NCBI GenBank assembly: GCA_026125895.1
Contig: JAHCKG010000021.1
Location: 17,789-81,788 of the forward strand
Source: Pseudolabrys sp.
GTDB lineage: Bacteria > Pseudomonadota > Alphaproteobacteria > Rhizobiales > Xanthobacteraceae
Length of the DNA stretch: 64,000 bases
Direction: 5' to 3'
Numbering within the stretch: the stretch's first letter is position 1; each line of letters begins with the position of its first letter. The notes beneath the pieces are model-generated. The model did not search any database. It saw nothing but the letters and a program-made list of their open reading frames with translations, and was not told the origin of the DNA. Positions 17,903 through 56,168 of this stretch are shown one piece after another. A program made the translations under genes and the position numbers.

Positions 17903-17917
17903 TTAACCCGGCGTTAA
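17903..17917. promoter_or_regulatory. Perfect CtrA box (TTAA-N7-TTAA)
   Basis: TTAA at 17903-17906, a seven-base spacer, TTAA at 17914-17917, continuing as TTAACCAT, which is the preferred CtrA half-site. It lies 125 bp before a small membrane-protein gene. No clear -10 follows at the usual distance, so it could repress or act at a distance. Confidence 0.5.
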
Positions 17918-18041
17918 CCATATCCGCCACGAAAGCGCCCCGGTTCCCGACCGGCTTCGCCACATTCGGGCCGAACCGAAGCCGGGTTCCAACGTTAGCC
18001 AGTGGATGCAGTGATTCTGACTCCGCTCCGGTGGTTTCGTG

Positions 18042-18341
18042 ATGCGCAACCTTGAACATTCTGCAGGTTTCCGCGGCCCGGCCAGCCTCCACGGCACCGG
18101 CGTCGAGTCGCGCCGTGTTGTCCTCGCCGAACTGACGGCCATCGCCGGCCTGTCGATTGCGACGTTGGTAGCGGTGACGGCGGTATCTGTCGGCATGGCC
18201 CGCGCCGCCGTTGGCGATGGCGTCATTGGCAATGATGGCGGCGTGTTCGCCATCGCCCTGGTGCTCGGCCTCGCCTTCATCGCCATCGGCGGCTTCGCCG
18301 TGCTGATGCCCGGCGGCGGGCGCCGCCATCCGCGGCACTAA
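18042..18341 (+). CDS. Small membrane protein of unknown function
   Basis: About 99 residues with two predicted membrane helices (about 30-54, LTAIAGLSIATLVAVTAVSV; about 70-90, FAIALVLGLAFIAIGGFAVL) separated by a short Gly/Asp loop. No family recognised. A minus-strand frame over the same interval is low-complexity and unconvincing. A perfect CtrA box lies upstream. The start is uncertain because the ribosome site is weak. Confidence 0.6.
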   Translation: MRNLEHSAGFRGPASLHGTGVESRRVVLAELTAIAGLSIATLVAVTAVSVGMARAAVGDGVIGNDGGVFAIALVLGLAFIAIGGFAVLMPGGGRRHPRH

Positions 18342-46909: not shown

Positions 46910-46962
46910 GAGATAGACGGAAACCGGCCACAGCCGGTGTTTATTGCGTTTTGACGGGCTTT

Positions 46963-46977
46963 TTTAACGTCACATTA
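46963..46977 (+). promoter_or_regulatory. Perfect CtrA box (TTAA-N7-TTAA)
   Basis: TTAA at 46963-46966, spacer CGTCACA, TTAA at 46974-46977. A -10-like TATTAC lies at 46990-46995, 12 bp downstream, the spacing seen at CtrA-activated promoters where the second half-site takes the place of the -35. Transcription would begin near 47002. Confidence 0.7.
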
Positions 46978-47001
46978 AGCTTTCCCGACTATTACTCAAT
47001 T

Positions 47002-47096
47002 CAGTCCATCTTCATGGACTTGAGTGGCTCCTGTCCACTCTGTTTGACGCCTCCCTGTTATCTTACTGAGCCGCCAGAACTGGCGGCTCTTTTTTT
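47002..47096 (+). ncRNA. Predicted CtrA-dependent small RNA with anti-Shine-Dalgarno motifs
   Basis: About 95 nt between a CtrA-box promoter and an intrinsic terminator, with no open frame. Three hairpins can be drawn: 47003-47009 with 47014-47020 (7 bp, loop CTTC); 47022-47027 with 47035-47040 (6 bp, loop CTCCTGT); and the terminator. CUCCU sits in the second loop and CCUCCC (47050-47055) is single-stranded, both complementary to ribosome sites. Trans-acting RNAs of Alphaproteobacteria use such motifs to block translation. Existence and ends are predictions from sequence. Confidence 0.6.
47068..47096 (+). terminator. Strong intrinsic terminator of the predicted small RNA
   Basis: A 10-bp perfect stem (47068-47077 with 47080-47089) is followed by seven consecutive T. 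It lies 184 bp after the DUF1192 stop and 287 bp before the rcdA start, too far from DUF1192 to be its natural end and so pointing to a separate short transcript. Confidence 0.9.
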
Positions 47097-47122
47097 GGTT
47101 AACGCGTCACAATTTTGGTTAA
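47093..47122. promoter_or_regulatory. Direct repeat TTTTGGTTAA, 20 bp apart, upstream of rcdA
   Basis: TTTTGGTTAA occurs at 47093-47102 and 47113-47122, spaced two helical turns. Each holds a TTAA CtrA half-site core, but spacing (16 bases) is not that of a full box. A regulator binding on one DNA face ahead of rcdA is plausible. Confidence 0.35.
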
Positions 47123-47382
47123 TGAGCCGGAATGCCCGTGTTTCCGCGCCGTTTTGGTGCAAGGGGCCGATCTGAGCTGTGGTTTAACCAGCGGCGGCAA
47201 CTATGTCGCAAGCTTTGTGACGCCAGCATATGGACAGGACGGCCCCGTACGCGCATGCTTACTCAATCGTGAACGCGCCGTTTGAACCGATAATAGCGGC
47301 AACGGCAAAGCGCGGGCGACGTGAATTGCGCGCGCAACACGAATGTCAGGGTTCGCGTTTAGCGTTGAGTGAGGCGTAGCGT

Positions 47383-55122: not shown

Positions 55123-56124
55123 TCAGGCCGCGAGCTTGGTCTGATCCTGCGCCGCCTTGTGCACCTTGGAGGCGTGGAACACGTCGGTAACGAGGCCGAG
55201 CTTTTCGAGGCCGAGAATGATCAGGCCGTTGAGATCGAACTCGTACCAGGCGTGCGACAGATAGGCATCGCGCGGGAAGCGGTGATGGTTGTTGTGCAGG
55301 CCCTCGCCGAAGGTGAGCGCCGTCATGATCAGGTTGTTGGTCGACTCGTCCTTGGCGTCGTCGAAGCGGCGATAGCCAACCTTGTGGCAAACCGAGTTCA
55401 CCGTCGCCGTCGCCATCACCGACAGATAGGTGCGCAGGAAGCCGGCGAACAGGATACAGCCGACCATCGCGTGCCAGCCGCCGAAGGCATAGCCCCACAG
55501 CGCCGGGAAGCCGACCATCGACAGGAAGTACCAGAACCAGCGCGTGCGGGTAAAGAACATCACCATCTTGTCGTCGAGCATGTCCTTGGCGAACACGTCG
55601 TTGTCGGTCAGCGTGTCGTCGAACAGCCAGCCATTGTTGGCGTACATCCAGGCGCGCAGCTTGTTGGTGAACGGGCGGCCGTGGCTGTCGATGTGCGGCG
55701 AGTGACAATCGCCGACGTCGTCGGTGTAGAGATGGTGGCGGCGGTGATTGCCGACCCACTTGAGCAGCGAGCCCTGGCAGGTGAGCTGGCCCATGGCGCA
55801 GAGCACGAACTTGGTGATCGGCCCGCACTTGAACGAGCGGTGCACCAGCATGCGATGCACGGTGATGCCGAGGCCGAGCGTCGTCACGGTGTAGCCGAGC
55901 ACGAACATCGACCACTCGACCCAAGTGAGGCCTTGCGTGATCGCCCAGTACACGCCGGCGATCGAGCCGCCCATGAAGATGAAGAACAGCAGCATGCTCT
56001 CGCGCTGCTTGGCGCGCACCTTCGGCCCGCCGACGATGATGCCGCGCGGCAGCGGTGGAAGCGGCTGATTGTGCAGGTTTTCGTTGATAAGCGCGGCGTG
56101 GTCGTCGTACGACGCGACGGACAT
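55123..56124 (-). CDS. Acyl-CoA/acyl-lipid fatty-acid desaturase
   Basis: 333 residues with four hydrophobic segments and the three histidine boxes of membrane di-iron desaturases: HRMLVH, HRRHH and HNNHH. The layout is that of delta-9 type acyl-CoA/lipid desaturases, which insert a cis double bond using O2 and an electron donor. Single gene with a CtrA box 30 bp upstream and a terminator after, suggesting cell-cycle or cold-related control. Confidence 0.93.
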   Translation of the reverse strand: MSVASYDDHAALINENLHNQPLPPLPRGIIVGGPKVRAKQRESMLLFFIFMGGSIAGVYWAITQGLTWVEWSMFVLGYTVTTLGLGITVHRMLVHRSFKCGPITKFVLCAMGQLTCQGSLLKWVGNHRRHHLYTDDVGDCHSPHIDSHGRPFTNKLRAWMYANNGWLFDDTLTDNDVFAKDMLDDKMVMFFTRTRWFWYFLSMVGFPALWGYAFGGWHAMVGCILFAGFLRTYLSVMATATVNSVCHKVGYRRFDDAKDESTNNLIMTALTFGEGLHNNHHRFPRDAYLSHAWYEFDLNGLIILGLEKLGLVTDVFHASKVHKAAQDQTKLAA

Positions 56125-56153: not shown

Positions 56154-56168
56154 TTAACAAGTCGTTAA
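56154..56168 (-). promoter_or_regulatory. Perfect CtrA box (TTAA-N7-TTAA) before desaturase
   Basis: TTAA at 56154-56157, spacer CAAGTCG, TTAA at 56165-56168, 30 bp upstream of the desaturase ATG. A TTAAC half-site follows at 56130-56134. The close position would overlap or abut the promoter. Confidence 0.6.

Follow-up and report, generated by a model that had tools for sequence, protein, structure and literature searches.

In a window of 64,000 nucleotides (nt) from Pseudolabrys sp. (contig JAHCKG010000021.1, positions 17,789 to 81,788; the window is this whole stretch of DNA, and positions are counted from its first letter), a small RNA (sRNA) of the Rfam family RF02356, BjrC1505, is predicted on the + strand at 47002-47096, upstream of rcdA. 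It is preceded, at a conserved spacing, by a conserved CtrA-type box, whose occurrence is tied to the RNA more than to rcdA. The most fitting reading is that the box belongs to the sRNA gene, and the RNA is probably activated by CtrA. We consider it quite probable that BjrC1505 genes carry a CtrA-activated promoter of their own and that the RNA acts in trans by blocking ribosome sites.

The sRNA gene and its box

The match to the Rfam model extends over 46957-47096 and covers it entirely (model positions 1-140 of 140); its score, 106.3 bits, is far over the cut-off of 50. The RNA, presented as a new one in the preliminary description of this DNA, is therefore already known. The model, of 140 positions, includes the promoter: it starts inside it, and its first ~45 positions (46957-47001 of the window) correspond to the box and the -10 element.

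By direct reading, the box TTAA-N7-TTAA (TTAACGTCACATTAA) is located at 46964-46978 (+ strand) and a -10-like element, TATTAC, at 46990-46995 (+), 11 nt 3' of the box. The perfect box, the TATTAC at this spacing, the strong terminator and a predicted RNA of ~95 nt can all be read in the sequence as first described. Judging from the promoter, transcription would start at ~47002, which would place the box at about -38 to -24. A position over the -35 region agrees with CtrA acting as an activator. Three perfect TTAA-N7-TTAA motifs are found in the window, where 100 dinucleotide shuffles give 0.01 on average.

The 96 nt of 47002-47097 fold at -36.7 kcal/mol (z -5.7), none of 200 shuffles being as good; the 45 nt 5' of the RNA, which hold the box, fold no better than shuffles (z -0.2). 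Three hairpins had been claimed and are borne out by covariation in an alignment of 72 diverse sequences without promoter, hand-picked from 139 loci. Hairpin 1 (47003-47020, +) has 90.0% of cells paired and two-sided changes in 5 of 6 pairs; hairpin 2 (47022-47040, +), with CUCCU in its loop, has 94.3% and 4 of 6. The intrinsic terminator (47068-47096, +), composed of a stem of nine pairs, seven of them GC (47068-47089), and then a T run, has 96.7%. Taken together, the three have 94.0% of cells paired and two-sided changes in 15 of 20 pairs. None of 500 shuffles attains these two figures, and slides of one to three columns pair in at most 50.6%. The two upstream hairpins were named by hand and afterwards tested for covariation, RNAalifold recovering the terminator alone from the same alignment. 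The absence of a reading frame, also claimed, needs a correction: a mechanical, TTG-started open reading frame (ORF) of 74 amino acids (46951-47175) spans the stretch, although the covariation of the hairpins and the varying length between species argue against its being coding.

The box was scored as matches to the eight positions of TTAA-N7-TTAA within the 50 nt tested. Upstream sequence was sufficient at 135 loci, of which 62 score 8 and 65 score 7; at least 7 is thus found in 127, a score reached in 0.74% of 810 windows farther upstream and in ~7.8% of dinucleotide shuffles. These loci were found with a model that includes the box, and a sample chosen by the seed of the RNA only was used to remove this circularity. 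A seed scan of named genomes gives at least 118 loci; nine chance matches outside the alphaproteobacteria (judged by title; best score 6) and three with short upstream sequence were excluded. Among the matches listed, 101 of the remaining 106 loci, which include two titled merely Proteobacteria or Pseudomonadota, score 7 or 8, compared with 4 of 610 control windows. The promoter consensus over these 101 loci is TTAAC-N6-TTAAGCTTTC-N5-TATnAC, the positions +26 to +31 from the start of the box being T (0.70), A (0.80), T (0.76), n, A (0.75) and C (0.47). All in all, when related genomes are compared, as the preliminary description had proposed, the box, its spacing, the hairpins and the terminator are found conserved over many families, and a CtrA-box-driven sRNA beside rcdA is strongly supported.

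The location between DUF1192 and rcdA is likewise confirmed by the flanking matches, a DUF1192 protein (PF06698; 46690-46884, +) upstream and a DUF1465 protein of the RcdA family (PF07323; 47383-47907, +) downstream. This neighbourhood is frequent. Of 137 loci, 119 have rcdA downstream in the same orientation and no more than 700 nt away (105 of 109 in the order, 14 of 28 in the rest of the class), and 92 have DUF1192 upstream; in the named set, of which 80 loci were examined, RcdA comes next in 62 of the 68 that could be judged. The box mostly stays with the RNA when no rcdA is near, and it is also present in tandem copies, and for these reasons it is assigned to the sRNA gene. In one genome (G360) the RNA and an 8/8 box are 41 kb away from rcdA, and in another (G320) they occur in a genome without a PF07323 match; where no RcdA hit is near, which is the case at 18 loci, 15 keep a box of at least 7/8, a count in which a divergent rcdA or a contig end (as in L044) may hide the gene. 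Tandem sRNA copies ~200 nt apart are found in two genomes of one genus (L275 and L276; G693 and G527): both copies of G693 have 8/8 boxes, and so has one of the two copies in the piece of G527 that was examined, the second being truncated at a contig end; a third G527 match lies on a separate contig.

The seed, its mode of action and its possible targets

Between hairpin 2 and the terminator lies the seed, GUUUGACGCCUCCCUGUUA (47042-47060, +), whose core GAYGCCUCCCUGUU (47046-47059) is almost invariant across the 72 aligned sequences. The CCUCCC within it (47050-47055), described earlier as single-stranded, does fall in a loop in the minimum-energy fold, that of a weak helix of five pairs. In four presumed Rhizobiaceae-type members (L289, L290, L291 and L294), the box, the -10 element and the terminator are kept and the seed is altered before TCTCCCTGTTTTACC, so that their targets may differ.

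The seed is similar to the anti-Shine-Dalgarno sequence at the end of 16S rRNA, which makes the blocking of ribosome sites a likely mechanism. One could then picture phosphorylated CtrA (CtrA~P) binding the box over the -35 region, and RNA polymerase initiating at ~47002 and stopping at the strong terminator before rcdA, to yield a trans-acting RNA of ~95 nt. The two short hairpins and the terminator would keep the stretch UUUGACGCCUCCCUGUUA open, and this stretch would most likely block ribosome sites in a number of mRNAs, whose genes would be turned down post-transcriptionally while CtrA is active. The computation shows that the RNA belongs to the family, how it is structured, that box and spacing are conserved and that the box goes with the RNA instead of rcdA; we infer that CtrA binds and activates, where transcription starts, how repression works and what all the targets are.

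The targets suggested earlier, ribosome sites with GGGAGG in the window itself, do not hold up: GGGAGG occurs 24 times for a chance mean of 35.9, fewer and not enriched, and these sites are therefore no evidence of targets. In 23 genomes of the genus, the exact 11-mer complement of the seed, CAGGGAGGCGT, has 46 matches, 23 of them in the sRNA genes and 23 elsewhere, and the reversed pattern has 11. Fourteen of the 23 sites outside the sRNA genes were inspected: two are the same region in near-identical genomes, and the rest are mutually dissimilar. One site of this kind, in G007 (L332, minus strand, site at 1500), puts the 11-nt complement at the ribosome site of hpf (PF02482), a hibernation factor.

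Evidence against, and other explanations

Several observations weigh against a BjrC1505 gene with its own CtrA-activated promoter and a ribosome-site-blocking RNA. As regards the promoter, a TTAA-N7-TTAA is a motif match and no proof of CtrA binding. Five of the 106 seed-selected loci (among the matches listed) stay below 7, four scoring 6 and one 4, a Methylobacterium being included. Three loci taken to be Rhizobium (L290, L291 and L294) have an altered seed together with a perfect box, TATTACT and a terminator, and Caulobacter vibrioides, one of 14 control genomes (presumably the same set throughout), has PF07323 and no RF02356 match. As regards the targets, each candidate tried was rejected. 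Pairing with the 5' regions of ctrA (median duplex -15.4 vs -16.3 in mononucleotide shuffles) and of gcrA (-17.1 vs -17.3) equals that of shuffles, over 27 of 30 loci for each gene, three each being skipped at contig ends and at least one ctrA start being misplaced. This pairing lends no support to an RNA layer that would act on CtrA itself. Pairing with rcdA, the start codons of which were picked by a rule favouring Shine-Dalgarno sites, beats shuffles modestly in the family of the window alone (median z -1.07, n=27); in other families the median z is -0.18 (n=94), and other neighbour genes range from -0.12 to 0.61, a weak signal on which rcdA was not retained. Finally, the 11-nt complement at hpf is not conserved as such: over the 30 loci compared, most genus members show just an AAGGAGG-type Shine-Dalgarno sequence at that place.

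These results on targets bear on the best surviving alternative, which we nevertheless regard as rather unlikely: the conserved seed could be a protein-binding or ribosome-directed element, the RNA acting by titration and not by pairing with mRNAs. It would account for a core that is nearly invariant while no conserved target has been found, and a stretch resembling the anti-Shine-Dalgarno has many possible partners. The target search on which this argument leans is, however, small, consisting of a few genes and of one 11-mer in one genus.

That the TTAA-N7-TTAA of a real sRNA is bound by another regulator, or forms an unusual core promoter, seems improbable. In favour of it, Bradyrhizobium and several other genera have TTTA as the first half site (7 of 8). 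On the other hand, the two half sites and their 7-nt spacing persist although the bases in between are mostly variable, the element is the CtrA motif as given in the available text for Caulobacter and Methylosinus, and CtrA itself is found in 33 of 40 relatives at E 1e-60.

The third explanation is that the box is the promoter of rcdA and that the RNA is a terminated 5' leader, an attenuator, of its mRNA. The frequent presence of a co-oriented rcdA at no more than 700 nt speaks for it, as do CtrA motifs described in the available text upstream of rcdA in Sinorhizobium meliloti (PMC3616915) and in Caulobacter (PMC4287350), and, for agrobacteria, several rcdA start sites with CtrA sites farther upstream than in Caulobacter (PMC10469942). 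Since Caulobacter has such a box and no RF02356 match, a box linked to rcdA can exist without the RNA. Nonetheless, this too seems improbable, given the loci of G360 and G320, where box and RNA stand apart from rcdA or without it, the tandem copies with a box each, and the strong conservation of terminator and seed; moreover, the interval from terminator to rcdA (median 197 nt) holds a box of at least 7/8 in 20 of 119 loci, scattered, one being that of a second tandem copy, and of 30 rcdA loci of the class, five have the seed upstream and 18 of the other 25 have no such box within 700 nt (seven do).

Spread of the family, viral relatives and known systems

RF02356 is matched in 37 of 40 relatives at E 0.001 (36 over the cut-off), in 245 of 297 genomes across the order (212 over it) and in 30 of 289 across the class (14 over it); none of the 14 control genomes matches in any of these three scans. 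Among the matches listed, titles of seed loci include Bradyrhizobium, Rhodopseudomonas, Nitrobacter, Mesorhizobium, Phyllobacterium, Methylobacterium and Bosea, as well as Devosia, Roseibium, Stappia, Hyphomicrobium, Sneathiella and Kiloniella. A covariance model built from the transcript alone (R2; an earlier one, R1, built on a poorer structure, was left unused) scores 99.9 bits on the present locus (46996-47101), its own copy being among the building sequences. In class genomes it matches 86 of 385 at E 0.001, many of them weakly; 31 of the matches listed are below 1e-6, about half of which gave sequences to the model. One genus member (G002) has two near-identical sRNA copies at contig ends (C41:22417-22540 and C121:9622-9762), perhaps an assembly duplicate.

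The seed is also present in 15 IMG/VR contigs. Chance occurrences of so short a sequence are possible in a collection of this size, and R2 was therefore run on 251 viral loci that four pattern scans had supplied, a model with which loci having little beyond the seed reach ~18 bits. Fifteen of the 251 match at E 0.01 and six exceed 40 bits. The highest score is that of L451 (1064-1169; 87.1 bits), with a primosomal protein ~400 nt off, followed by L601 (2674-2786; 57.4 bits), viral by its IMG/VR label, by L458 (3142-3246; 53.7 bits) and L459 (2356-2468; 53.5 bits), both having tail or virion proteins no more than a few kb off, by L446 (5994-6100; 52.2 bits), with a terminase large subunit ~30 nt off, and by L449 (11494-11613; 42.2 bits), where three ORFs tested have no PHROGs match and the viral label is that of IMG/VR. 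Lower in the ranking, L452 has a tail or virion protein within a few kb and an integrase, L453 a tail or virion protein, L447 a phage RNA-binding protein ~170 nt off and L456 a DNA ejection protein 5.6 kb off, L447, L453 and L456 being related to one another; the weakest matches, such as L578, are doubtful. A box of at least 7/8 precedes none of the 15 (best score 6). By blastn, an insensitive test here, the RNA has no match in phage and plasmid collections, and in public phage records the three phage proteins tried have distant relatives alone, all below 60% identity.

As compared with the Rfam entry, of which the present locus is a full-length member, the additions made here are the conserved CtrA-type box and the box-less viral relatives. 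Madhugiri et al., whose work of 2012 we take to be the source of the family, reportedly observed expression of BjrC1505 in Bradyrhizobium japonicum, a homologue in Rhodopseudomonas palustris and a lower amount in nodules. In the literature searched, BjrC1505 is named solely in a table of one paper and RF02356 is not named; its available text holds no link of BjrC1505 with CtrA, and Madhugiri et al. 2012, which stood outside the search, might mention the promoter. The text of Reinkensmeier et al. 2011 (PMC3927594) does not contain rcdA, DUF1192, DUF1465 or CtrA. The siblings BjrC68 and BjrC174 appear in the accessible part of another article as previously analysed sRNAs (PMC4842269).

An sRNA under CtrA control is a known kind of thing, control of noncoding RNAs by CtrA being described for Caulobacter in the available text of PMC4287350, and CcnA (CCNA_R0094) of Caulobacter is one such RNA. 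CcnA, encoded at the replication origin, is 182 nt long, and BjrC1505, encoded here beside rcdA, ~95 nt; CcnA pairs CCCC with GGGG in the ctrA and gcrA leaders, while 47002-47096 has no CCCC and its seed pairs there like shuffles. EcpR1 (SmelC291) is, according to the text available, likewise a conserved sRNA of the Hyphomicrobiales with a role in the cell cycle (PMC4414408), but it adjoins divK-pleD or rpmG, as far as these sources extend (PMC4414408, PMC12403871), instead of DUF1192 and DUF1465, and the two are not the same RNA. mmgR/suhB (RF00519) shares a CCUCCCU before a GC-rich terminator; membership in that family was rejected, at 22.7 bits for a cut-off of 41.

As far as the searches go, therefore, the RNA family is known, and its CtrA-type box, conserved across taxonomic families and outside the order too, and its box-less viral relatives are unreported in the literature searched. 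CtrA regulons have so far been read mostly as lists of protein genes. We tentatively propose, as a view that may well prove wrong, that in much of the Alphaproteobacteria the CtrA regulon has BjrC1505 as a core RNA arm, produced each time CtrA is active, that phages of these bacteria captured its body (hairpins, seed and terminator) without the box in order to impose the same translational programme at a moment they choose themselves, and that some boxes credited to rcdA drive the RNA. If BjrC1505 were a direct CtrA product, the master regulator of the cell cycle would have a shared post-transcriptional output in these bacteria. Some of the published rcdA boxes may indeed drive a BjrC1505-type RNA, Caulobacter, with a box at rcdA and no RF02356 match, speaking against it there, and rcdA promoter annotations in several species would then need a second look. 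The viral relatives would offer an independent handle on the role of the RNA.

Two other perfect TTAA-N7-TTAA boxes are present in the window. The second, at 56154-56168, precedes by 30 nt an ORF on the minus strand (55123-56124), which by eye, without a family search, resembles a fatty-acid desaturase. The third, at 17903-17917, is upstream of an ORF of 100 amino acids (18039-18341) that looks like a membrane protein.
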